64,000 nt of DNA, taken from an uncultured Candidatus Nitrosopumilus sp. (GTDB lineage Archaea > Thermoproteota > Nitrososphaeria > Nitrososphaerales > Nitrosopumilaceae). The first letter of the stretch is position 1; each line of letters begins with the position of its first letter. The position numbers and the translations under genes are program-made. The notes under the pieces were generated by a model, which saw only the letters and a program-made list of their open reading frames with translations, was not told the origin of the DNA and searched no databases. The DNA lies in NCBI GenBank assembly GCA_951812655.1, contig OX638319.1:1465620-1529619 (forward strand), given 5' to 3'. Shown here piece by piece: positions 3 through 55,396 of the stretch.

Positions 3-77
3 GCATATGAGGAACTGGCAAGGAAACTGCGCCAAAGAATCTACCAGTCGCTGAACGTGGAGGAAGAATACGCATGA
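3..77 (+). CDS. 3' end of an unidentified casposon gene (partial)
   Basis: An open frame enters from the left edge and ends in TGA at 75-77, giving about 24 charged residues ending in EEEYA. Its stop overlaps the start of the DNA polymerase gene as ATGA, so the two are translationally coupled. The tail is too short to assign a family. Confidence 0.6.
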   Translation, partial: AYEELARKLRQRIYQSLNVEEEYA

Positions 78-2908
78 AACTGGGCAAAATGGGCGTGATC
101 AATGTACCTCAGGCAGAGTCAATCAGCCTCAGATGCTATACTGGAAACTACAGGCCTGTCTCACGCTATTCCCACAACGAAAATGCCAATAATGGAATGG
201 TGTTAACTTTCAGCACTGAGACCACTTCTGACCAGCAACAGACCCTGACCTTTGGCTCCTGTGCAGTCTGGATTAACGGCACATTGTATAAGATTTGTCT
301 TTTCCATGATGAGAATCGGGACTCCGAGAAAGTTGATATGATAAAAAAAGTTGGAGAAACACTGCAAAAAGAAAAGGACTGCATTGTAACCGTATCATCC
401 AAGGATGAGTTTGTGACAAGGGTCTTCTATCCGTATGTCTATGAGGCAAGGGCAAAGTATGTCGGCTTTGACTTGCCATACGAGTTGTCTAGACTTGCAT
501 CATCATGGGGAACTGCAAGAAAAATCCAAGATGCGTTTTCAATGAAACTAGTTGATGGCATTCCACGTCTTCCCGCAATCAGGATTAAGAGCATAAACGG
601 AAATGCGGCATTCATCCAGTTTGCAACTCCGCTAAGGACAAAAAGCGAGAAGAAGAAATTCCCAACCCGCAAGGTGTACAGAGGGTATTTCCTGGATTTG
701 AAAACAATAGGACATGCAATGAGCAACAAGTCCTTTGATGCAATGGATGGACTTGCAAGAACGTTTGATGTAGATGCAAACCTGAAAAGCAAGAAAGGGA
801 TTACGGAAGCTGCAATCAGAAGCAATGTGGACAAAACACTGACAATGTATAATATCTACTGCAGAATTATTTCCGTGTTACAGAATACGTTTTTGGTAAA
901 ACCAAACAATGCAAACAATCTGTACTCTCCAGCTTCAATTGGGAAACACTATCTAGAGAAGCTAAACATCAAGCCGCTCCTGGAGAAAAATCCAGATTTT
1001 TCAAAAGAAATTCTAGGAAACATGATGACTGCATTTTATGCAGGACGGGTCGAAACCAGAATCAGAAAAACACCCGTTCCAGTTACTTATCTGGATTGCA
1101 CCAGTACCTATCCTACAATGTTCTTGCTGATGGAAATGTATCCGTTTTTGACTGCAGAGAAAATTGAACATTCTGTCACTACACAACAGACGCAGAAATT
1201 CCTTGATGGGGTCACCCTGCAGGACGTTTCACAAAAGGAGACATGGAGGCAGCTGACCACAATCTGCAAGGTAGTTCCAGACGGCAACATGATTGTGCCT
1301 GTACGCTCCGGATACGGCTCCAAGAAAGCCCAAAACATAGGCGTAAACCCTCTCAAAAGCACCGATGGAACGAGCCTGTGGTATACCGTATCTGACCTGA
1401 TAGCCTCAAAGTTGCTTACGGGTCACACATCAATAATTGAAAAGGCAATTACATTCTCTCCTGCAGGAATACAGCAAAACATTCCTGATGAGGACGTGGA
1501 AATTTTCAAGGGAGTGACAGTCAATCCGAGAAAAGAGAATTTCATCAAGCAACTAATCGAGAAGCGGTTGGAGATGAAGCGACCCTCAGAAAATTCTGAA
1601 ATTGATAGCACAATACAGAACACGATAAAAATAATCGCAAACACCGCAGCATACGGCATACACATCCAGGTAAACTCTGAAAAATCTGAGAAGCAAAACG
1701 AACCAGTAAAGGTCTATGGAATTGATGAATCGTTTTCCATAGATCAAAACACAGTATCAAGAAAGGAGATTCCTGCAAGGCACTTCAATCCCATATTGGG
1801 AGTCTTCTTGCCTGCAGCTGCAAGGTTAGTTTTGGCAGCCGCCGAAAGTATCGTTACATCACACAGAGACGGATACGTTGCCTACATGGATACAGACAGC
1901 ATTATGGTTTCACCAAAACATGCAAGTGGGATTCAGAAGTTTTTCCAGAAACTCAATCCATATGAAAACAAGGACGTGCAGATTATGAAAGTTGAAAAAT
2001 CTGATGATGGAAAACTGTTGGAGAACGTATTGTTCTTCGGAATCTCATCCAAGAGATACGTTTTGTTTGAACATAACGAAATGAAAAACAAATTCAGCAT
2101 TCGCAAGTTCACGTCTCACGGTTTGGCCCATCTGTTGGACGTGGATGCAGAGAAATGGTGGGATGACATACGTGCAATGCATCATCATCCGGAAAGAAAG
2201 CAGGACATACTTGACAGGTATGATAACAAGTATGCAGTATCCAAAATGAGCATCACGACACCAAATGTGTTGAAGAAATTCGGTAACTTGAGACCGTTTG
2301 ACAAAATACTTGTCGGTACAGGATGCAAAAGCGATGGCAACGGCAATGCGATAATTCCGACCTTGCCGTACCTTGATGCAAGAAACAGAGAATGCATCCA
2401 GTACATGCCGTTTACAAATTATCCCACAGGTGAGAGATATTCAGGCTCTGTAGACACCATTCCCTACTGGAAGCCGTTAAGTGAAATGCTGGATGAATAT
2501 GCCAATCACAGGGAGGCAAAGTCAGGCGGAAACATTGGCTTGCTGCCTCGATTACGCATGAAAATAGGCAAGAATTTGATAAAATACGTGGGAAAGGAGG
2601 TGGCAAACCTTGATGCTGCCAACATCCTGGGAGTCACGGAAAATTCTGGCGGTCGTACTGTCTATGACAATCTTGAAGAAAGAATACTTGAGATTAGACC
2701 ACGAGATTCCCACAGATTTGGAATGTCAAGGAGCAACTTGATTGCAATCCAAAAGAAAATCAGAAGCAATGACTCTATAGTGAATCTCCAGAAAGGCACC
2801 ATCAAAAAACTACAAAAGGCATTTTCGGACGTTGTTTCGGAAAATTGCCGGAATGATGACCGGAAAGAAAGTGACACTGTGATTGAACGGGAGGTGATAA
2901 TGAAATAA
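74..2908 (+). CDS. polB: Family B DNA polymerase of casposon type (probably protein-primed)
   Basis: The 944-residue protein should replicate or repair the casposon DNA. Polymerase motif A is seen as YLDCTSTYPT with the metal Asp near residue 341, motif B as KIIANTAAYG (519-528), and motif C as YMDTDS (604-609). An exonuclease-like GFDLPYELSRL stretch lies near residue 131. Thaumarchaeal (family 1) casposons are known to carry protein-primed PolB, and that class fits best; I could not verify the TPR insertions that define it. The start overlaps the previous stop (ATGA). The stop overlaps the next start (TAATG). A decayed paralog of the last third lies at 54.1-55.0 kb. All three catalytic motifs are intact, so it may be active. 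Confidence 0.88.
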   Translation: MKLGKMGVINVPQAESISLRCYTGNYRPVSRYSHNENANNGMVLTFSTETTSDQQQTLTFGSCAVWINGTLYKICLFHDENRDSEKVDMIKKVGETLQKEKDCIVTVSSKDEFVTRVFYPYVYEARAKYVGFDLPYELSRLASSWGTARKIQDAFSMKLVDGIPRLPAIRIKSINGNAAFIQFATPLRTKSEKKKFPTRKVYRGYFLDLKTIGHAMSNKSFDAMDGLARTFDVDANLKSKKGITEAAIRSNVDKTLTMYNIYCRIISVLQNTFLVKPNNANNLYSPASIGKHYLEKLNIKPLLEKNPDFSKEILGNMMTAFYAGRVETRIRKTPVPVTYLDCTSTYPTMFLLMEMYPFLTAEKIEHSVTTQQTQKFLDGVTLQDVSQKETWRQLTTICKVVPDGNMIVPVRSGYGSKKAQNIGVNPLKSTDGTSLWYTVSDLIASKLLTGHTSIIEKAITFSPAGIQQNIPDEDVEIFKGVTVNPRKENFIKQLIEKRLEMKRPSENSEIDSTIQNTIKIIANTAAYGIHIQVNSEKSEKQNEPVKVYGIDESFSIDQNTVSRKEIPARHFNPILGVFLPAAARLVLAAAESIVTSHRDGYVAYMDTDSIMVSPKHASGIQKFFQKLNPYENKDVQIMKVEKSDDGKLLENVLFFGISSKRYVLFEHNEMKNKFSIRKFTSHGLAHLLDVDAEKWWDDIRAMHHHPERKQDILDRYDNKYAVSKMSITTPNVLKKFGNLRPFDKILVGTGCKSDGNGNAIIPTLPYLDARNRECIQYMPFTNYPTGERYSGSVDTIPYWKPLSEMLDEYANHREAKSGGNIGLLPRLRMKIGKNLIKYVGKEVANLDAANILGVTENSGGRTVYDNLEERILEIRPRDSHRFGMSRSNLIAIQKKIRSNDSIVNLQKGTIKKLQKAFSDVVSENCRNDDRKESDTVIEREVIMK

Positions 2909-3369
2909 TGGCCGGAATGATAGAGAACAGTACCGGAATGATAGAGAACAGTACCGGAATGATAGAGAACAGTATCGGAATGATAGAAAATTCCACCGGA
3001 TTGATAGAGGAGAATGCCGGAATGATGACCGAAACTAATGAGATAGAACGTACTGCAAGTGGAAGAAAAAAGCGTAGCAGGGAACGAGGAAAGGACAGCA
3101 AGCCTAGAAACTTCCCACTACATACAATCAAGAATCTGCCACAGTTCAGAGACAAGTCACATCAGGAAGTTAGAGAATACATACTTGCAAAGAAGGGAAT
3201 TGACATTGGAGGCAATTTTAATCTTGGAAGTATAATCATGCCAATCTTAATCGTGTCTGCAATAGTTGCAGGAGGATACGGATTATACTGGTTGATAAAA
3301 CAACTCCAGAAACGAAAAGAAACACAAAATGAGAATGTTGCAAATCCACACAACATGACTTGTGAATGA
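2908..3369 (+). CDS. Small casposon protein with 7-residue repeats and a C-terminal membrane segment
   Basis: The family is not recognised. The 153-residue protein starts with about six copies of a GMIENST-like heptad encoded by exact 21-bp steps (CCGG at 2912, 2933, 2954, 2996, 3017; TCGG at 2975). A strongly basic middle (RKKRSRERGKDSKPRNF) follows, then a conserved FPLHTxKNLPQFRDKSHQEVR stretch and one membrane helix near residues 108-130. Its start overlaps the polB stop (TAATG), with GGAGGTGAT about ten bases upstream as a ribosome site. A paralog at 54995-55396 is still open although its neighbours are broken. Position next to a protein-primed-type polymerase suggests a priming or membrane-anchoring partner, but this is only inference. 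Confidence 0.75.
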   Translation: MAGMIENSTGMIENSTGMIENSIGMIENSTGLIEENAGMMTETNEIERTASGRKKRSRERGKDSKPRNFPLHTIKNLPQFRDKSHQEVREYILAKKGIDIGGNFNLGSIIMPILIVSAIVAGGYGLYWLIKQLQKRKETQNENVANPHNMTCE

Positions 3370-15458: not shown

Positions 15459-16691
15459 TTATCGAATTTTCAAAAGAATTTTCTCACAAATTTTGGGATT
15501 TTTTCCTTCAGATAAATTCTTCTTGATATACCATAGAGTAGATTTGTTAATCCCTAGTTGTTTTCGTTCATCAAAAGTCATATTCAAAATCTTTTTTTGT
15601 AATTCCACATCATCATTCCTGTTCAATTGCATCTTTGGAATAACAAAACCAATTTCTTTTTTCTTATCTATAATAAAATTGGATAGTTGTTGTAAATTAT
15701 CCTGTAGAATAATTTGATATGAGTAATTCTTTCCATTTTTATAATTACATCTAGCATTAAAGTTTGAATTTATTTTCTCAATGAGTAATTTAGCAACATC
15801 TTCTCCCAATCTAGTATGATAATTCTCAGTGATGATAAAATCAGATTTTTTGATCATCTTTCCTTCCAATAATTGAATAACTGAAACATCAATGAGCCAT
15901 CTAAACAATTCTTGAATGTCATAGACTAATGGTGTTCTACTCTGATTAATCTCATGTAAAAATCCAATTGAATAATCCATTCCTACTGAGTTGATTGACT
16001 TTCTTATTTCTGATTCTAAAATAGCGTAACCGTAATTCAATAAGGCATTGATCTCATCAGACGCATTGTAATTTCTAGAGTTTGTCTTGTTCTTTCTCCC
16101 AGTAAAATTAAACTCTGGATACAACTCATTGAATATCGCAGTTAGATTCTCATGATAAATTCTAGCGATTCTTCCCTCATATGTCATCAATTGTTTTATT
16201 GATTTTGAAATGTCCTGTTTCTCACTGTTCTTCATGATGCCCAACAAAAACAAATCTTCTTTTTCTGCGGATTTTCTGATTTTGACAAAATCTATCGATT
16301 CATAAAATTTTGACAATCCTTCCAACAAGTTCAGGGAATGTTCTACCTTGGTCTGGACTATCTTCAGGGCAATCTCGAATCTATTATTGCAATCAAGGTA
16401 CTTTTGGTACTGCTTTACGCGTAATTTACCTGATTTTGGCTGCTCTGGCATCACATTTGCCAGTAATTGGCCGTTCCAGTTCAGTAATGTCAGATTGATG
16501 TTGTGCTTTGAGAGCCACCTCATTGCCTCAAACGTGATGTTGCCAGTATGCCCGTCAATGATAATTCCATCATGATTGATCTTGTGAGGATAAAATTCCA
16601 GTCTTGTATCTTTTAGTCTGTTTGTTATGATCAGCTTTCTCTTGTCCACGTTGATTGATGTTCCAAAGCCTGTGATAAGTAGAGGATTCAA
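15459..16691 (-). CDS. cas1: Casposase: Cas1 integrase with C-terminal HTH
   Basis: The 410-residue protein has the Cas1 N-terminal beta domain (IIIDGHTGNITFEAMRWLSKHNINLTLL). The catalytic helical domain has the family's acidic/His residues at E226 (YAILESEI), H246 (GFLHEIN), D258 and E261 (LVYDIQELFRWLID). The end is an extra HTH (ERKQLGINKSTLWYIKKNL), absent from CRISPR Cas1 and typical of casposases. No cas2 or CRISPR repeats are near. The start is TTG, 26 bases after a CATAAAAT box. The first ~130 codons have normal GC and the rest is very AT-rich, as if recombined. All catalytic residues are present, so it may be active. Confidence 0.88.
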   Translation of the reverse strand: MNPLLITGFGTSINVDKRKLIITNRLKDTRLEFYPHKINHDGIIIDGHTGNITFEAMRWLSKHNINLTLLNWNGQLLANVMPEQPKSGKLRVKQYQKYLDCNNRFEIALKIVQTKVEHSLNLLEGLSKFYESIDFVKIRKSAEKEDLFLLGIMKNSEKQDISKSIKQLMTYEGRIARIYHENLTAIFNELYPEFNFTGRKNKTNSRNYNASDEINALLNYGYAILESEIRKSINSVGMDYSIGFLHEINQSRTPLVYDIQELFRWLIDVSVIQLLEGKMIKKSDFIITENYHTRLGEDVAKLLIEKINSNFNARCNYKNGKNYSYQIILQDNLQQLSNFIIDKKKEIGFVIPKMQLNRNDDVELQKKILNMTFDERKQLGINKSTLWYIKKNLSEGKNPKICEKILLKIR

Positions 16692-19899: not shown

Positions 19900-20460
19900 A
19901 TGCCGCAGACAAGACCCATAATCAGCATTGAAAACGTCGTGGCATCAGCTACAGTCAACCAGGAACTGGATCTTGTTGACATTCAGAAAAAATTTCCCAA
20001 AGTGGAGTACGACCGTGAGCAGTTTCCAGGCGCCTGCTTTAGACTTGAAAAACCAAAAACTGCCACCTTGCTGTTTCGGACGGGAAAGATGGTGTGCACC
20101 GGTTCAAAATCTGAAGAGATGGCAAGAAAGGCAGTGAAAATGGTAGTTGAGAGTCTCAGGGAGAAAAAAATCAAGATAAAAAATGATGCCCTTGTAACAG
20201 TACAGAACATCGTAGCATCCATCAATCTCGGAGGGACAATACATCTGGAAAAGGCAGCAAGGACCGTACCCAGAAGCATGTATGAGCCTGAGCAATTTCC
20301 GGGACTAATACACAGGATGGTGGATCCAAAGGTGGCGATACTTGTCTTTGCATCAGGCAAGCTGGTGTGCACCGGAGGCAAGACGGCACCGGATGTCCAT
20401 CGTGCCGTAAACTCACTGCATGTCTTACTGGAAGAAAAAGAACTGATGATTTATGACTAG
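19900..20460 (+). CDS. tbp: TATA-box-binding protein
   Basis: The 186 residues form the two-fold repeated TBP saddle: IISIENVVASATVNQELDL...EQFPGACFRLEKPKTATLLFRTGKMVCTG and VTVQNIVASINLGGTIHLE...EQFPGLIHRMVDPKVAILVFASGKLVCTGGK. It binds TATA boxes and recruits TFB and RNA polymerase. It lacks extra domains and looks complete. The array of 21-bp phased motifs starts 57 bases after its stop. Confidence 0.97.
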   Translation: MPQTRPIISIENVVASATVNQELDLVDIQKKFPKVEYDREQFPGACFRLEKPKTATLLFRTGKMVCTGSKSEEMARKAVKMVVESLREKKIKIKNDALVTVQNIVASINLGGTIHLEKAARTVPRSMYEPEQFPGLIHRMVDPKVAILVFASGKLVCTGGKTAPDVHRAVNSLHVLLEEKELMIYD

Positions 20461-20516: not shown

Positions 20517-20915
20517 TATCGATTCGGTAACTCTGATATCAATCGGTAGATGGATTTATCAATTCGGTATCTTTTCGGAGAATCACATTGTCAATTCGGA
20601 GAGAAATGTTATCAATTCGGCAGAATGGTTATCTTTCCGGTAACAGAATTTATCTTTCAGGTGTGATTTTCTGTTATTCCGACAGAATATTCCGAGATTA
20701 CCGGATTGATAACTATCTTTCCGGGGAACCAAAATGATTTTTCCGATACGATTCTACATTTTCCGGGTTGATATCTCCGAAACTCCCGAGACTTTGTCGA
20801 TACTTTCCGAGAGTTTTGATCGTCATTCTATCTTTCCGGCTATCAATTCGGGGATTTTGTCGAGACTTTGTCGATACTTTCCGAGAGTTTTCCGAAACTG
20901 CCGGAAAGATATCGA
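20517..20915 (+). repeat. Left array: ~21-bp phased TATCWWTYCGG motifs
   Basis: The 11-mer TATCWWTYCGG or a close variant starts at 20517, 20537, 20557, 20568, 20589, 20610, 20630, 20651, 20672 and 20714, with more degenerate units to about 20915. Spacing is 20-21 bp with one 11-bp step, that is, whole helical turns. The region is non-coding: the 20-bp steps and stops break any long frame. Together with the decamer block that follows it is a diverged inverted copy of 45601-46171. Protein-binding iterons are the best guess. Confidence 0.75.
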
Positions 20916-21005
20916 AACTATGGTCTGATCGCTACAACCCTAATTTGATGATTCATTGCAGGTTAAACACGTTCAGTCCATTCTCATTGGACGTTTTTGG
21001 GCATT

Positions 21006-21133
21006 GTCCAGTTTTGTACATAGATAGATTCCAATATAGTCCAAAGATGTCCAATATAGTCCAAAGATGTCCAGTTTTGTCCAATAATGTCAAAATTTGT
21101 CCAAGAACATCCAAAACTGTCAAGAAATGTCAA
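21006..21133 (+). repeat. Left array: 10-bp phased GTCCA motifs
   Basis: The pentamer GTCCA or a one-base variant occurs at 21029, 21039, 21049, 21059, 21069, 21079, 21089, 21099, 21109, 21119 and 21129, exactly every 10 bases. Two more out-of-phase units lie at 21006 and 21016. One unit per helical turn puts all copies on one face of the DNA. The array ends at the stop codon of the zinc-ribbon gene 21130-21339. A matching inverted block is at 45601. Confidence 0.8.
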
Positions 21134-21339
21134 ACTTGGGAATTTTCACGATGCCTCTGCTTGGACTGATTGCCCTTGGGCTTGTTTCTCAGCATATGCC
21201 CACAACAGGGACACCATAGTCCTTCCCACTTTATGTAGATGTCACATGTGGTGCATCTCTTTGCCCCCTGTCTGTACCAAGAATCAGCCCTCTTTCCCTT
21301 TGTCACTGTGTACCTGTGGCAGATTCCGTTGCATGTCAT
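21130..21339 (-). CDS. Small zinc-ribbon protein (thaumarchaeal family)
   Basis: The 69 residues have the full family pattern: CNGICHRY...RQGAKRCTTCDIYIKWEGLWCPCCGHMLRNKPKG. The KRC..C...GLWCPCCG part is a complete four-Cys zinc site. It is the intact counterpart of 6408-6623. The role is unknown. The 3' end touches the 10-bp array, and the gene is divergent to the exported protein at 21395. Confidence 0.75.
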   Translation of the reverse strand: MTCNGICHRYTVTKGKRADSWYRQGAKRCTTCDIYIKWEGLWCPCCGHMLRNKPKGNQSKQRHRENSQV

Positions 21340-21357: not shown

Positions 21358-21375
21358 TAGAATTCTTTATGAATC
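21358..21375 (+). promoter_or_regulatory. GAAYT-TTATGAA promoter 1
   Basis: TAGAATTCTTTATGAATC places a TATA-like TTTATGAA 26 bases before the ATG at 21395, giving a leaderless mRNA. The same GAAYT-N2-3-TTATGAA layout precedes five other exported-protein starts between 22.5 and 46.3 kb. Confidence 0.6.
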
Positions 21376-21394: not shown

Positions 21395-22489
21395 ATGAGA
21401 ATGGGAACTGTCGTGGCTTTGTTGTTTTCATCCGTATTGATTCCTGTGATTGTTGATGAGGCCTATGCAAAATGCATGGTTGGCGATGAATGCTATGGAT
21501 CTCCACTAGTCCCTCCGTTGAAATTCCAATTTCAATATTTTGCACTGCCCGATATCATATGCCCCAATCAAGATCACGTTTTAACTGAGAGACCAAATGG
21601 AAAACTCGCATGCGTTACAAGCAGTATGGCAGAAAAGACCGGGTGGCACATACATTACATGAATGTAGTTGATGCCAAAGGTCAGGTCCATATTGTGTCT
21701 CCCGGAATAATTTCTTGGATTCCTTTTGAGATAACCGGAGCCACACTTGATAAGATGGTATACGAAAATCAGATGCTGGTCGTATCAGTTACGCCAAACG
21801 ATGAACATGGGGTACTGTCAGTTGAATTACCCTTAGGTTCAGTTCCAGCAAATTTTGAGTACTGTGGTACTGACAACGAGAACCCGTTTGACACGCCATT
21901 TGTTATGATCATTGACGGACAAAAATACCCTCTAGTTGAAGGCATAAACTCACGGGGTCAGCCTGCTGTAAACATTCCTCTTGATGAAAATTCAGAGACC
22001 GTTGAGATAGTCAGGACTTGCAATGACCCATCCAAAAAATCTTCAATTGATTCTGATTCCAAAAAAATGGAAGACGTGCAAGACCTAGAAAATATGAGAA
22101 AAAGCATACTGGAACTTGAATTTAATGATAACATCATAACGGTACTCATCAGCGATGAGACATATTTTGGAGCAATGACCTCTTTTGAATTTACAACCAT
22201 TTCTGTTTCTAATTTGGTGCATGCCCATGACATGTTGCCTGAGACAAGCATGAACGACCGCATAATAGCAGGATCCATACTGTCTGAGATAGTCAAGGCA
22301 GGAACCTACATCACGCAAAATGGGGATAAGGAATTCTGGTATGCTATAGGTGGAATTGAATCTCAGGTAATTACAATTGAGCTGCGAGACCATGAGTTTG
22401 ACAGGATTGTATTTGTCTCTGAGAACAGCAAGGAATGGATTAAACAGATCAATGATATTGTAAGTTCTACAGAACAAGTTCACAATTGA
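21395..22489 (+). CDS. Secreted protein with Cys module and a C-terminal domain shared with 42229-43782
   Basis: The ATG is chosen from the promoter spacing. A signal peptide ends at EAYA, followed by CMVGDECYG and the module IICPNQDHVLTERPNGKLACVT, which recurs in six other exported proteins here. The middle part (WIPFEITGATLDKMVYENQMLVVSV) resembles a beta-sandwich. The last ~130 residues (DVQDLENMRKSILELEFNDNIITVLISDE...) are almost identical to the C-terminus of 42229-43782 on the opposite strand, so the domain was recently duplicated. Function unknown; secreted or surface-bound. Confidence 0.7.
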   Translation: MRMGTVVALLFSSVLIPVIVDEAYAKCMVGDECYGSPLVPPLKFQFQYFALPDIICPNQDHVLTERPNGKLACVTSSMAEKTGWHIHYMNVVDAKGQVHIVSPGIISWIPFEITGATLDKMVYENQMLVVSVTPNDEHGVLSVELPLGSVPANFEYCGTDNENPFDTPFVMIIDGQKYPLVEGINSRGQPAVNIPLDENSETVEIVRTCNDPSKKSSIDSDSKKMEDVQDLENMRKSILELEFNDNIITVLISDETYFGAMTSFEFTTISVSNLVHAHDMLPETSMNDRIIAGSILSEIVKAGTYITQNGDKEFWYAIGGIESQVITIELRDHEFDRIVFVSENSKEWIKQINDIVSSTEQVHN

Positions 22490-27630: not shown

Positions 27631-28667
27631 AGGTTAAAAGAATTTTAAAATATTCTGGCATCTCTGTTGCCGTTTTGATGGTGGGCTTTCTTGCCGTAGC
27701 GCAAATTGCATATCAGAGCATAGCTGAAATCGTTCCTCCAGGTACAATGTACTCGATTAATGATACAGAAATTCACATGTATTGTACTGGATCAAATAAC
27801 GATGAAAAACCAACAATAATCATCATCTCTGGAGGAAGTACTGCAAGTCTGGAGTATTTTTATCTGCAGGAGAAGTTATCTCAAACCATTCGTACATGCA
27901 CTTATGATACTGCAGGAATGGGTTGGAGTCCTGCAAACGACATTCCATATACTGCAAAAAACATGTCTGATGAATTATACCAACTCTTACAGACTGCACA
28001 AATTGACGGTCCGCTAATCCTGGCAGGACATGACGTGGGTGGAATCACAGGCCTGGTTTACAGTGCAGAACATAACGAACAGGTTGGAGGATTAGCGATT
28101 ATTGATCCAAGTCACTATGATCAACCCGGTTATTTTGGAGAAGAATTCAAAGAGAAATTTGACAAAAGAATACAGGAATCTTTGGCCAATTTTTGGCTGG
28201 TAGAACTTGGCAATAATCTTGGAATCATGCATTTGTTAGGCATTTGGAATCATCCCGAACAAACCATGCAAGAATACAATGAAATGCGTTCATCATTATA
28301 TAGGTGGAATCCTCCCTTTTCTGCAATAAAATCGATGGCCAGTAATATTGACTTGATTTCTGAACAGGGAAAAGAAGCACATCATGACCGGGGAGATTTG
28401 CCAATGATTGTTATTTCAGCAGCAGGTCCAATTGCAGGCGATTCTAGAGAGATAGGAGGAATACCAATAACGGAATACAGGAAAGGCCTTGATGAACTTC
28501 ATAAAGACTTGGCAGGATTGTCAAGTAATGGCAAACATGTCATTGTAAACGGGACAAGTCATACCAACATAGTATACAATGATGAGATAGCAGAGCACAT
28601 TCTGGATCTGGTTCCTCTGATTGAAGATATACAAAACGAAAGATCAACCCATGCAAGATTTAATTAA
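27627..28667 (+). CDS. Alpha/beta hydrolase with Asp at the nucleophile position
   Basis: A single N-terminal membrane anchor precedes an alpha/beta hydrolase domain: IIISGGSTASLEYF (oxyanion region), DTAGMGWS, and the nucleophile elbow AGHDVGG with Asp at residue 136 instead of Ser. GTSHTNI near residue 313 supplies the catalytic His. An Asp nucleophile is the mark of epoxide hydrolases and haloalkane dehalogenases. Epoxide hydrolysis would fit the upstream monooxygenases. It overlaps the glycosyltransferase gene by 4 bases and ends the operon. Confidence 0.8.
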   Translation: MKVKRILKYSGISVAVLMVGFLAVAQIAYQSIAEIVPPGTMYSINDTEIHMYCTGSNNDEKPTIIIISGGSTASLEYFYLQEKLSQTIRTCTYDTAGMGWSPANDIPYTAKNMSDELYQLLQTAQIDGPLILAGHDVGGITGLVYSAEHNEQVGGLAIIDPSHYDQPGYFGEEFKEKFDKRIQESLANFWLVELGNNLGIMHLLGIWNHPEQTMQEYNEMRSSLYRWNPPFSAIKSMASNIDLISEQGKEAHHDRGDLPMIVISAAGPIAGDSREIGGIPITEYRKGLDELHKDLAGLSSNGKHVIVNGTSHTNIVYNDEIAEHILDLVPLIEDIQNERSTHARFN

Positions 28668-43860: not shown

Positions 43861-45507
43861 TCATCCCGTGATGGCCCCTCTCTGTTGGGCCTCTTCTTTT
43901 GATATTGGCAAATTTTGCACGTTTGAAAGATTTGTCTCAAGCAAATCTGCATTATTGAGGTTTGCACCCTGTAGGTCCGCACCAGACAGGTTGGCCCCTC
44001 GAAGATTGGCATTTTCCAGGTTTGCATTTTGCATGTTGGTATTTTGCAGACTCGCATTATGCAGATCCGCATATTTTAGGTTTGCAAACTGCATGTTGGC
44101 ATCATCAAAATTCAGTTTTTTTAAGTTTGTCTCAGCCATCATTGCACCCTGTAGGTCCGCACCCTGAAAGTTTGTCCCAGTCATACTTGCAATTTGAAAA
44201 TTCACTCCTCTCAAATCCGCATTTTGGAGGTCTGCATTATCCAGGTTTGAATCATTAATGTGTGTGTTCTTCATATTTGCACCTGTCAGGTCCGCACCAT
44301 GAAGATTTATGCCATAAAGATACGCATCACGGATGTCTGCATTACTCAAGTTTGCACCCTGAAGATTTGTGTACTGAATATTTCTATAATCAAGAACAAT
44401 TCCCTGAAGATTTGCATCTTTGAGGTTTGCATACTCGATATGAACACGTTCTAGGTTGATTTCACGTAAATCCATTCCCTGAATGTCTGCGCCTTCAAGG
44501 GACACTTGAACGTGACTCAGATCCAGGGTTTCTTTTAGATTGTTAAACTCAGACACTTGTCCACCTTCAAGCAACTCGACGAGTTTTTCGTTATCGTTAT
44601 CGCTGTCTGATTTTGCCAATGTGTCGCTCTCATTTTTAGTCCACCCTCGCTCAATCAGCTTCATTTTGGTTTCAGGAGTTACACATGCTATGCGTTTGTC
44701 ATCTGAGATCTCCTGCTCAAGCAACCTGTATCCTGTCTTGCATTCTATCTGTGAAGCACTCACTCCCATCTGGTATTGTATTGATGGCGGGAATTGCTCA
44801 GTTACAATTCCTATCTTTCCAACTTTGGTTTGCGGGACTTTTGTCAGGAGCGTTCCGTCATCATCCACTGAAAACTCCCAGCTTACAGATATCGCACACC
44901 TGTCCTTGTTTATCCCATTTGGCCTGTCGGACTGGAACAAGACCGCATGAAAGTCATAGGTACCGGGACCCAGTCTTTCAGAAGGCATCACCACAGATTT
45001 GCTGTCCCCTGGCAGATATTTTTCATGGTTGTCAACATCGCCTATTGTGGAATTCTGACTGTCTGATTCAAAAACAAATGCAAGATGCGGATAGTCCTTT
45101 ATGTATAATCCACCGGTTATTGAATGACCTGGATGCTTTTTCACATCCACGACATATGCCGGGATTCCATTGCTTTTGGGAAGTGCAGATTCCAAGTAAC
45201 TGTATGAATCTGAATCAGATTCGCCCAAAATTATAAAGAAATTGTCTTCAGTATCATCTATGTTCAGGAGTTGATCTTGATTGGCATCTATGATGCCCGT
45301 TTTGACTTGAGGTTGTATGCTTTCACAGAAAAGAGAACTGTCATCTTCAATAAATTCTAAAATTCCAAAATAATATGAGAATACGTTTGATTGGATGTCC
45401 TCGTTTTCAGATTCTCCAAACGTGGTACCATGACCTGGCTGAATCAATGGACTTGTCAGCATGCCAAAAACAAGAACGGACATCAGGCCAATTCCAAGCA
45501 GAGTCAT
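43861..45507 (-). CDS. Secreted pentapeptide-repeat protein with Cys module
   Basis: A hydrophobic N-terminus (residues 1-25) is followed by an alpha/beta outer domain and the module QIECKTGYRLLEQEISDDKRIACVTPETKMKLIERGW. From about residue 325 to the end run ~40 pentapeptide units of the A(D/N)LxG type (GANLSNADIRDAYLYGINLHG...). They form a right-handed quadrilateral beta-helix of about ten coils. Such a long helix is a rigid rod, probably a surface spacer or ligand. The nucleotide repeats make this gene prone to recombination. Confidence 0.85.
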   Translation of the reverse strand: MTLLGIGLMSVLVFGMLTSPLIQPGHGTTFGESENEDIQSNVFSYYFGILEFIEDDSSLFCESIQPQVKTGIIDANQDQLLNIDDTEDNFFIILGESDSDSYSYLESALPKSNGIPAYVVDVKKHPGHSITGGLYIKDYPHLAFVFESDSQNSTIGDVDNHEKYLPGDSKSVVMPSERLGPGTYDFHAVLFQSDRPNGINKDRCAISVSWEFSVDDDGTLLTKVPQTKVGKIGIVTEQFPPSIQYQMGVSASQIECKTGYRLLEQEISDDKRIACVTPETKMKLIERGWTKNESDTLAKSDSDNDNEKLVELLEGGQVSEFNNLKETLDLSHVQVSLEGADIQGMDLREINLERVHIEYANLKDANLQGIVLDYRNIQYTNLQGANLSNADIRDAYLYGINLHGADLTGANMKNTHINDSNLDNADLQNADLRGVNFQIASMTGTNFQGADLQGAMMAETNLKKLNFDDANMQFANLKYADLHNASLQNTNMQNANLENANLRGANLSGADLQGANLNNADLLETNLSNVQNLPISKEEAQQRGAITG

Positions 45508-45600: not shown

Positions 45601-45674
45601 TGGACAATGTCTGACATTGTTGGACAAAACTGGACATCCTTGGACTTTATTGCACATTTGTATTTGGACAATGT
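45601..45674 (-). repeat. Right array: 10-bp phased TGGAC motifs
   Basis: TGGAC or a one-base variant starts at 45601, 45611, 45621, 45631, 45641 and 45651, exactly every 10 bases, with one out-of-phase unit at 45665. It is the complement of the GTCCA decamer at 21006-21133. The surrounding bases also align, so this is a diverged inverted copy. Confidence 0.75.
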
Positions 45675-45730
45675 CCAAAAATGTCTAATAAAGACGGATT
45701 GAACGTCAGATGTAATCGATAAACTGTCGA

Positions 45731-46171
45731 AATAGAATTACTGCGATCGGATTATTTTTTGACATCTTTCCGACAGTTTCGACAAACTCTCGGTAAATAT
45801 GGAAAAGTTTCGGTAAAATCATCGAATTGATAGCCGGAAAGATAGAACTGCGATCAAAAGTTTCGGAAAATATCGACAAATTCTCGGAAGTTTCGGAATT
45901 ATCAATCCGGAAAAATCCATTTTGGTCTCCTGAAAAATAGTTATCAATTCGGTTGTGCGGAATATTTCACCGGAAAGATGGAAAGTCACACCGGAAAGAT
46001 AGATTCTGTTACCGGAAAGATAGATTCTGTTACCGGAAAGATAGAACTTCTCATCGAATTGATAAAATGTTTCTCCGAAAAGATACCTGATTGATAAACT
46101 TCGAAACTAGATTAGCTCCGAATTGATAATCCGTTACACTGAATTAATAATTTTGTCATCCAAATTGATAC
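45731..46171 (-). repeat. Right array: 21-bp phased CCGRAWWGATA motifs
   Basis: Motif starts at 45970, 45991, 46012, 46033, 46054, 46075, 46086, 46118, 46139 and 46160: steps of 21 bp with one of 11 bp and one of 32 bp. More degenerate units reach back to about 45731. The 11-bp step falls at the same place as in the left array. Part reads as a heptad peptide (TGKIDSV) but is broken by stops. The block lies between divergent promoters for 45507 and 46259. Confidence 0.78.
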
Positions 46172-46218
46172 CGAAAAGAAACTCAAAATACCAAAATACA
46201 TTTCAAAAACCACATGAA

Positions 46219-46258: not shown

Positions 46259-48052
46259 ATGAACAAGATGTTTTTCATAATGATACTTTTTGGAGTTGTC
46301 CTGGTCCCTGCCAACCTTGCTTATGCTTCAATTAATCCAAACTCTCTTCTAGATGAAGAAGAGATACCTTTGCCAGACCAAACCAAGGAACTATTATCTA
46401 CATGTCCTGATGTCTGGAAGGATTTCTTTACCAGATCACCCGAGAAAAAACAATTCATGGATGATGTTACAAAGGGCCTAATTTCAAATACACCGGAGTT
46501 TCAATCGCTGAGCGGGAGCATACAGTCCATTACTGCACACTATATACATAACTTGGATTCGCCCTGTCCTCCAGAGGCATACGCTTACGGAACTTTCAGA
46601 TCAGAAAACAACAATGACATACACAGATTCGTATTGGAGTTTAACAGCGTTTATTTTCGATACATGGTTAATGACATGCTGCCGCAGTATGCATCATCAT
46701 CATCTGTTCAGGATGAAAAGCAAAACGAATCTCCAGTACTTTCACCGCTAAAACAGATTCTTTCTGGAATATCTCCTCAAGACATTGTATGTAGTGAAGG
46801 ATTACACCTAGTACTTACTTTATCTGAAAAACCTGCATGTGTAAAAGAACAATCCATTTCAAAATTAATCGCCAGAGGTTGGATAGACGATTCAAAAAAA
46901 CTGAGTCCAGATATAGAAAAAATTCCCACTGATCCTGTTCTTGCCAAGAAAATAACCGACGCAACCAACCAATTTGCACTTGACTTTTACAAGCATGAGT
47001 CAGAGAACGAAAATGAAAACATATTCTTCTCATCACCCAGCATCTCTACTGCATTCTCAATACTGTATGAGGGTGCAAGAGGCGAGACCGCAGACGAGAT
47101 GCAAAAAGTGTTTGGATTTCCAAAAGATGATGATGAGAGACGAGTTGGATTTTTCTCATTTGGCGACACGATAGGCCAGAAAAATGATGATGAAAATACC
47201 ATGCAGATGGCAAATGCGTTATGGCTTGCAGACGGGTTTGCACCATTGCCTGAATATGTTGACACGGCCAAAACGTACTATTCCAGCTCAGTTGATTCTG
47301 TGAATTTTGCAAACGACCAGGGACGACTTGAAATAAATGATTGGGCAAAATCAAAGACACAGGACAGAATCAAGGAACTGCTCAAACCTGGCTCTACTGA
47401 TGCTAGTACCAAAATGGTAATCACAAATGCCATCTACTTTAACGGGGCATGGGAGCATCCGTTTGATTCTGAGGATACCTATGAGGCAGACTTTGCAGTA
47501 GATTCAGACAAGACGGTAAAAGTTTCCATGATGTCATATCCTCACAAGATGAAATTCAACCACACATCAACTGAACAGATGCAGATGCTCCAGATTCCCT
47601 ACAAGGCAAATGCTCTTTCCATGCTGATAATATTGCCTCACAATACAGATGACATGCAGTCTGTCGAGAAATCACTCACAGTGGAGAACCTAAAACTCTG
47701 GAAAAGTCAGTTCTATAACTACGGAACCGTAATTCACATGCCAAAATTTACGCTTGAAACAGAGTACAACCTAAAAGAATCCCTGACAGAAATGGGAATG
47801 CCATCCGTGTTCGGTCCGGCTGACCTAAGCGGCATAACAGGCAGCAAGGGACTGTTTGTATCTGAAGCAGTGCACAAGGCATTTGTAGATGTAAACGAAA
47901 AGGGAACAGAATCTGCAGCTGCAACTGCAATCAACCTTGACGAGTCAAGCGGGCGGGCATTCAAGGCAGACCGTCCTTTCATCTTCATCATACAGGATAA
48001 CGAGACAGAAAGCATTCTGTTTATGGGTAGGGTGATGGATCCAACTGCATAG
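46259..48052 (+). CDS. Secreted serpin with N-terminal extension
   Basis: Signal peptide (ends NLAYAS), a ~150-residue helical domain, the Cys module (DIVCSEGLHLVLTLSEKPACVKEQSISKLIARGW), then a complete serpin of about 365 residues. Serpin marks: NIFFSSPSISTAFSILYEGARGET, VITNAIYFNGAWEHPFD, MLQIPYKANALSMLIILP. The hinge VNEKGTESAAATAIN and FKADRPFIFII are also present. The hinge is of inhibitory type (small residues P15-P8). Counting from the hinge puts P1 near Glu/Ser in DESSGR, so a Glu- or Ser/Gly-directed target rather than trypsin. It should trap proteases outside the cell. Co-transcribed with 48064. Confidence 0.92.
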   Translation: MNKMFFIMILFGVVLVPANLAYASINPNSLLDEEEIPLPDQTKELLSTCPDVWKDFFTRSPEKKQFMDDVTKGLISNTPEFQSLSGSIQSITAHYIHNLDSPCPPEAYAYGTFRSENNNDIHRFVLEFNSVYFRYMVNDMLPQYASSSSVQDEKQNESPVLSPLKQILSGISPQDIVCSEGLHLVLTLSEKPACVKEQSISKLIARGWIDDSKKLSPDIEKIPTDPVLAKKITDATNQFALDFYKHESENENENIFFSSPSISTAFSILYEGARGETADEMQKVFGFPKDDDERRVGFFSFGDTIGQKNDDENTMQMANALWLADGFAPLPEYVDTAKTYYSSSVDSVNFANDQGRLEINDWAKSKTQDRIKELLKPGSTDASTKMVITNAIYFNGAWEHPFDSEDTYEADFAVDSDKTVKVSMMSYPHKMKFNHTSTEQMQMLQIPYKANALSMLIILPHNTDDMQSVEKSLTVENLKLWKSQFYNYGTVIHMPKFTLETEYNLKESLTEMGMPSVFGPADLSGITGSKGLFVSEAVHKAFVDVNEKGTESAAATAINLDESSGRAFKADRPFIFIIQDNETESILFMGRVMDPTA

Positions 48053-53925: not shown

Positions 53926-54000
53926 AAAACATTTTAGAAATTTTGTTGATGATTATTTCTACACAAAGTTATTGTATTATAAAATGATATCAACTGTGCT

Positions 54001-54994
54001 TTGAATCCTCTGATCATCACAGGTTTTGGAACATCAATCAACGTAGACAAACGAAAACTGATCATTACAAACAGACTAAAAGATACAAGACTGGAATTTT
54101 ATCCCCACAAGATTAATCATGATGGAATAGAAGACAAATTCAACATTCACAAGTTCACATCTCATGGTTTGGCCCATCTATTGGACGTTGATAAAGAGAA
54201 ATGGTGGAATGACATACTTGCAATGGAATATTTTCCTGAAACAAAACAAGAGATACTTGACAAGTATGAAAACAAGATGCAGTATCCAAGATGAGCATCA
54301 CAACGCCAAATGTGTTGAAAAGATTTTCCAATCTAAGACCATTCAACAAAATATTGATTGGTACAGGATACAAGACAGATGACAATGGCAATGTGATAAT
54401 TCCAACTTTGCCATACCTTGATGGAACACAGAGGGAATGTATCCAGTACATGCCATTTACAAATTATATCACTGGAGAGAAATTCCCAGATTCCGTAGAT
54501 ACTGTTCTCTAGTGGAAGCCATTGAATGAAACGTTGGATGACTATGCCAACTACTGGAAGCCATTGAATGAAACGTTGGATGACTATGCCAACCACAAGG
54601 AGACAAAGTCAGGTGGAAATATTGGCTTGTTATCCAGATTACGCATGAAAATAGACAGGAATCAGATAAAATATGTCGGAAAGGAGGTGGCAAATCTTGA
54701 TGCCTCTAACATCCTAGGAGTTAGTGAAGATTCTGAGGGTTGTATTGTATATGACAATCTAGAGGAGAAAATACTAGACATTAGACCGAGAGATTCCTAC
54801 AAGCTTGGAATATCTAGGAGTAACTTGATTGCAATCCAAAAGAAAATCAGGAGCAAGGACTCTCAAGTAAAACTTCAGAAAGGAACCATCAAAATGCTAC
54901 AAAAGGCATTTTCTGACACTGTTTCGGGAAATTTCCGGAATGATGACCGGAAAGATAACGACACCATGATTGAACGGGAGGCGATAATGAAATA
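54001..54994 (+). pseudogene. Fused and broken cas1-polB remnant
   Basis: Cas1 part: NPLIITGFGTSINVDKRKLI... to KINHDGI. It is followed directly by the polymerase part DKFNIHKFTSHGLAHLLDVD. Damage: a frameshift near 54285 (the frame ends NKMQYPR), an in-frame TAG where casposon A has TAC (54509-54514 region), and a 42-bp tandem duplication that doubles WKPLNETLDDYAN. The rest follows casposon A's PolB to its last residues (EREAIMK). Confidence 0.85.
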
Positions 54995-55396
54995 ATGACC
55001 GGAATGATAGAAGAGAATACCGGAATGATAGAAGAGAATACCGGAATGATAGAAGAGAATACCGGAATGATAACCGAAACTAATGACAGAGAATACACTG
55101 CAAGTGGAAGAAGAAAACGCAGTAAAGAAAGGGGCAAGGACAGCAAGCCAAGAAACTTCCCACTACATACATTGAAGAACTTGCCACAGTTCAGAGACAA
55201 ATCCCATCAGGAAGTTAGAAAATACATACTTGAAAAGAAGGGAGTTGATATTGAAAGCAATTTCAACTGGAATAAGATAATAGTGTGGATGCTTATGGGA
55301 CTTGCAATTGTTGCAGGTGGAATCGGAATTTGGAAATTATGGAAACAATGGAGTTCTGATGAGAATGCCCGAATCTCAGAAAATCTACAGCCGTGA
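54995..55396 (+). CDS. Small casposon repeat/membrane protein, copy in remnant D
   Basis: 133 residues, fully open: three GMIEENT heptads (21-bp steps), GMITETN, a basic RRKRSKERGKDSKPRNF stretch and the same FPLHTLKNLPQFRDKSHQEVRKYIL core as 2908-3369. One membrane helix (about 91-113) with a different sequence follows. Its start again overlaps the polB stop (TAATG). It has kept its frame while polB and cas1 next to it collected stops, which hints at selection or at recent decay. Confidence 0.7.
   Translation: MTGMIEENTGMIEENTGMIEENTGMITETNDREYTASGRRKRSKERGKDSKPRNFPLHTLKNLPQFRDKSHQEVRKYILEKKGVDIESNFNWNKIIVWMLMGLAIVAGGIGIWKLWKQWSSDENARISENLQP

Follow-up and report, generated by a model that had tools for sequence, protein, structure and literature searches.

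Direct repeats spaced by about one helical turn are found in the iterons of ParR/parC plasmid centromeres, where they lie on one face of the DNA and are coated by protein. The arrays described here differ from these in being multi-copy chromosomal sites at promoters, and partner genes were not recognised by eye. A second close system is formed by the operators of BldC from Streptomyces, which are one-turn direct repeats in variable number that are bound head to tail by cooperative multimers bending the DNA (PMC5859096). Our arrays likewise consist of direct repeats one helical turn apart, and the BldC repeat CAATTCGGA resembles our word TATCAATTCGG, a likeness that we take as a lead only. BldC operators differ in their two to four repeats, compared with tens here, and in their bacterial host. 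By analogy, BldC shows that such a binding mode exists, and one-turn direct-repeat operators are already known from bacteria in a short form. Arrays that extend over tens of turns, stay in register through 20–40% divergence and occur many times within a single genome are undescribed for archaea in the literature searched.

The archaeal histone positioning sequence Clone20 alternates A/T and G/C at the helical period, as the arrays do, but the arrays have fixed words of 7–11 bp and are restricted to one lineage (PMC10151503). Family-1 casposons of Nitrosopumilus have been described (PMC4046053, PMC6563490). They resemble the elements discussed below in having Cas1 without CRISPR, a pPolB-like gene and small genes between the two, and they come from the same genus; they differ in that the matching main-text passages of the two papers do not mention phased arrays.

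Modular structure of the element

In the window (the entire 64-kb stretch of DNA that we analysed, from a genome assembled as one contig of 1.67 Mb), eleven units within one mismatch of GTCCA follow each other exactly 10 bp apart at 21029–21133. The units are TTCCA at 21029, GTCCA at 21039, 21049, 21059, 21069, 21079 and 21099, GTCAA at 21089, 21119 and 21129, and ATCCA at 21109; two further units, at 21006 and 21016, precede the chain and are separated from it by a 13-bp step. The initial annotation had reported the eleven units, and the sequence bears them out; in 60 sequences of 64 kb simulated under an order-2 Markov model, the longest chain at one mismatch reaches only 2–4 units. In the real window, 10, 20 and 30 are the only periods between 6 and 30 that yield chains of more than three.

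Six complementary units had also been noted at 45601–45651. The site is real, but its strict regularity was slightly overstated: CTGAC at 45611 departs from the unit at two positions, and the longest chain by strict count is four. Although this chain alone is near the chance level, the second site is genuine because it is homologous to the first element in inverted orientation (88% over 58 bp and 77% over 367 bp). Judged by this homology, the copy at 45.6–46.2 kb (w2) is an inverted paralogue of the first (w1). A third copy is located at genome position 1421842, 65 kb away.

The GTCCA array, originally taken to be the element, is only one module of a phased, casposon-linked element. It constitutes the right-hand end (module C) of a noncoding stretch of 500–700 bp (∼600 bp) that comprises, from left to right, module A, module B, a variable linker, a dyad and module C. 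Module A is built from words of the form TATCWWTYCGG, such as TATCAATTCGG, and module B from the words CCGAAACT, TTTGTCGA and TTTCCGAGAG plus two TGATCG sites; TTTCCGA/TTTGTCGA is a further A+B word pair. The unit of module C is TGTCCAANWW, with seven conserved positions (0.9–1.7 bits per core position) and three free ones, and the module is opened by a dyad of consensus TTTTGGACAWTGTCCA that is common to most copies.

In w1, phased words of modules A+B occupy 20517–20931 on the plus strand, with TGATCG sites at 20817 and 20926. They are followed by the linker (20932–20998, plus strand), which shows no phase lock, the dyad GGGCATTGTCCA (20999–21010, strand not assigned) on the left edge of the GTCCA array, and module C (21005–21134, plus strand) with 13 TGTCMA units at 10 bp and one 13-bp step. 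The inverted paralogue w2 lies on the minus strand, with modules A+B at 45745–46190 and module C, composed of the dyad and seven units with one 14-bp step, at 45602–45677.

Association with casposons

The A pair pattern is present in 12 of 95 Nitrosopumilus congeners, and the reversed control gives zero matches. Nine of these 12 array genomes encode a casposon-type PolB, compared with six of the 83 others (p = 8e-7); G143 is without PolB and has several Cas1 copies. The arrays track one casposon lineage (family-1). Many of the copies we analysed are drawn from a single metagenome bin, G198, with 8% contamination. In a scan of 84,980 species genomes, repeated A-pattern matches fall almost entirely in Nitrosopumilus, and short 21-bp runs appear in a few bacterial contigs. 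Eight units (L308, 5399–5578) are found in a Phycisphaerae bin (OFTM243) with a shared sample-series name prefix (OFTM); its casposon-like A words may be, and probably are, due to contamination or a mis-binned contig.

The casposon core has the order Cas1, small genes, PolB, small ORF, terminator-like hairpin and A+B, and homology between cores stops just past the second TGATCG. The searches made in G222 and G203 gave neither terminal inverted repeats nor a target-site duplication. In the window, a Cas1-family casposase is encoded at 15459–16691 on the minus strand (PF01867, E = 6e-59), outside any CRISPR locus, as the tandem-repeat list of the window contains no repeat array of CRISPR size. 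The family B DNA polymerase (74–2908, plus strand) owes its casposon-type label to synteny with Cas1 and a YMDTDS motif. Searches by profile, against PDB and by fold brought up no match for this PolB in Pfam, PHROG or PDB; its structure model (pLDDT 32) is unusable, and no relatives were found in phage records or viral contigs. Behind it lies the small ORF (2908–3369, plus strand), which ends in a C-terminal hydrophobic segment. A decayed core at 53952–55272 (plus strand) retains a 5′ fragment of Cas1, the PolB C-terminus and a fragment of the small ORF with A words.

The N-terminal heptads of the small ORF, GMIENST, are encoded in frame by 21-bp A-type words (2912–3026); the A-type word is a coding repeat in this ORF and a noncoding array elsewhere. 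Next to the casposon PolB end or the array, an hsp20 gene is found repeatedly (L062, 2946–3290; L136; L138; L140). We rejected a viral origin of the arrays: four GTCCA units at 10 bp occur in 59 stretches of viral contigs, control pentamers in 42 and 22, and the A pattern has one match there.

A+B might be the terminal region of the casposon, serving a nucleoprotein complex for excision, integration or protein-primed replication, with the stand-alone copies as leftover ends. The fact that A+B follows PolB, the small ORF or both in no fewer than eight casposon contexts, the end of homology after the second TGATCG and the restriction of the arrays to one casposon lineage are all consistent with this. 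However, no matching inverted end was found past Cas1 in G222 or G203; none of the casposon cores was seen to contain a GTCCA array, and the stand-alone copies retain order, orientation and phase and are placed between promoters. We therefore consider a role as casposon end unlikely.

Register on the DNA helix

All 14 copies tested have an A+B Fourier peak at 10.4–10.6 bp, and in ten of these copies no shuffle reaches the G+C peak of A+B, the exceptions being L076, L125, L126 and L127. Word spacings cluster near 11, 21, 32, 42 and 53 bp. Neighbouring A words on the same strand are separated by 11–12, 19–22, 31–32, 40–43, 52–55 or 61–63 bp, with no values in between, and 270 of 328 A-word spacings deviate by at most 1 bp from whole turns, compared with an expectation of about 20%. 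Between the two TGATCG sites the distance is 55, 66, 76–78, 98 or 108–109 bp, depending on the copy.

GTCCA spacings (n = 147) were determined with a parser that has no built-in preference for 10. Of these, 122 are 10 bp, six are 20 bp, 17 are 13–16 bp and one each is 19 and 24 bp; spacings of 8, 9, 11 or 12 bp do not occur. Most module C arrays have one or two steps of 13–16 bp, and when these are counted, a turn averages 10.36 bp (18 arrays). The period, initially described as a strict 10 bp, is thus 10 bp from unit to unit, whereas the steps shift the mean toward the 10.5-bp helical repeat; they may serve to reset the phase against the helix. Modules B and C are not locked in phase to each other (distances of 72–75 versus 88–92 bp). 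The placement of every unit on one face of the DNA, as put forward in the initial annotation, is supported by these data, and the intrinsic curvature it suggested is predicted by two wedge models, under both of which the curvature of A+B exceeds that of its shuffles in almost every copy.

Phased A/T and G/C words could also position histones or bend the DNA with no dedicated protein involved. Archaeal histones favour alternating A/T and G/C motifs (PMC10151503), each of six genomes searched has one histone gene, and the predicted curvature points in the same direction. Nevertheless, array-free congeners have histones as well, and the specificity of the words (TGTCCAA, 0.9–1.7 bits per core position) exceeds what bending needs, which makes an element of this kind improbable.

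Orthologous arrays

Copies w1, L075 (G143), L274 and L122 (G198) share their right-hand flanking sequence. Orthology is anchored by a zinc-ribbon ORF remnant (21131–21337, minus strand), which is broken in frame, ends within the last GTCCA units and has copies in L075 and L274. Over their last 100 bp the four arrays align without gaps and the 10-bp register is kept. Pooled over five pairs, which are non-independent, differences amount to 63 of 240 in the core (26%) and 87 of 190 in the spacers (46%, p = 3e-5).

The initial annotation had made its reading depend on the period in orthologous arrays of close relatives, and the period is kept there; the element is therefore not a neutral microsatellite, for which no selection on spacing or unit sequence would be expected. 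Expansion by slippage would explain the near-identical 20-bp duplications (21026–21084), the 21-bp runs and the 20 bp by which w1 exceeds its L274 orthologue. It does not explain why diverged units keep an exact spacing with no 9, 11 or 12 bp, or why cores are conserved over spacers, and we regard it as very improbable.

Promoters and neighbouring genes

Most copies are placed between divergent TATA-type promoters with a box of the form GAAYTCYTTATGAAC (also written CTTATGAAC), usually 20–40 nt before the start codon. On the A side, 18 of 23 copies have a TATA-type box at a distance of 29–71 bp, against a background of 0.07 per 150 bp. A box on the C side is present in about 14 copies; it is 35–92 bp away in eleven, and w1, L075 and L274 have it past the zinc-ribbon remnant, at about 200–233 bp.

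The first intact C-side gene leading away from the array is exported-like, according to a simple hydrophobicity rule for signal peptides, in 21 of 25 copies, compared with 33 of 148 ORFs elsewhere (22%). One of the 21, L274, was counted via its orthologue since its called start is wrong. In three of the exceptions (L124, L276 and L136) the 3′ end of a gene faces the array, and the remaining one, L079, has a non-exported neighbour. Because the 21 exported genes represent six unlinked families, common descent of the gene alone is an insufficient explanation. The location upstream of exported genes that had been anticipated is therefore found for most copies; in w1, however, the broken zinc-ribbon ORF intervenes, and 230 bp separate the GTCCA array from the promoter of the exported gene.

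The C-side gene of w1 (21395–22489, plus strand), which encodes an exported protein, has its promoter box GAATTCTTTATGAA at 21360–21373. Copy w2 is flanked on its C side by an exported pentapeptide-repeat protein gene (43861–45507, minus strand) with a CTTATGA box upstream, and on its A side by a divergent exported serpin gene (46259–48052, plus strand). Since A+B of L138 and L140 is flanked by convergent genes, A+B is not solely a promoter element.

A TATA-binding protein (TBP) gene (19900–20460, plus strand) has its 3′ end facing the A side of w1. TBP genes adjoin several arrays (this one, L269, L270, L279, L124 and L062), and G000 has about five. No clear genome-wide tie between extra TBP genes and arrays emerged: G000, G143 and G198 have 10, 10 and 19 TBP domains, and array-free congeners reach 17.

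A role as iterons, for partition (centromere-like) or as an origin, in an element able to live extrachromosomally would agree with the nearby element polymerase and with the general resemblance of one-turn direct repeats to plasmid iterons, but the arrays are present in many copies per chromosome, are tied to exported-gene promoters and have no partition genes beside them that we could recognise by eye, so that such a function is highly doubtful. Transcription into a structured RNA, suggested by folding z-scores as low as −5 in several copies, is more doubtful still, as both strands score low, which is expected from inverted words, and DNA-helix phasing would have no role.

A proposed one-face scaffold for gene pairs

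The explanation we prefer, and to which we give about an even chance, is that the element is a one-face array for a putative oligomerising protein, forming the shared scaffold of exported-gene pairs and spread by casposon-linked recombination. With words of about 7–11 bp repeated once per helical turn or at whole multiples, copies of the protein would line up next to one another on a single face of the curved DNA, over as many as 50–60 turns. An array located between two divergent TATA-type promoters would act as their common regulatory scaffold, in the simplest form as an on/off or silencing filament. It would have been spread and reshuffled together with one family-1 casposon lineage, whose polymerase operon carries A+B at its 3′ side, and recombination inside arrays would give the flanking genes new partners. 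The cooperative filament-like protein binding suggested initially is supported as far as one-face phasing is concerned; the binding itself we infer.

A search with the model of the BldC family, HTH_17 (PF12728), gave no match in the array-bearing genomes G000, G143 and G198. The conserved casposon protein p170 was rejected as a candidate binder: it has a weak HTH-like region (residues 17–81, best Z 4.9) and no PDB sequence match, and it is absent from the G143 stretches examined.

The arrays provide a concrete starting point for asking how exported proteins are controlled and diversified in ammonia-oxidising archaea, and what casposons carry besides the integrase.

Exchange of flanking sequence

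Eight pairs of copies have 0.4–1.5 kb of flank in common, at 81–92% identity and starting 1–38 bp from the array. All eight flank homologies are one-sided and none is two-sided. For L075, L270 and L279 the other flank is common to a different partner, and the same is true of w2 and g3. We rejected a fixed crossover point: along paired elements identity drops at differing places, so there is no single site. The variable crossover zone is easier to reconcile with general recombination than with a fixed site.

Taken one step further, the casposon-derived array could be both a promoter-controlling filament site and a recombination junction by which Nitrosopumilus shuffles divergent surface-protein gene pairs. 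We put this forward as a speculation that is probably wrong; if true, these archaea would possess a system for surface variation that has a DNA scaffold of its own.

G198 contains two assembly branch points (C58/C59 and C89/C90) with common ends of exactly 141 bp at array boundaries, which could be repeated flanks or mixed strains. The serpin encoded in the window at 46259–48052, an archaeal exported serpin, is 89% identical to one beside array L075 in G143. Finally, positions 28000–50000 of the window, like L061, form an island of exported-protein genes, many of them with a domain of ∼50 residues that ends in KLIERGW.
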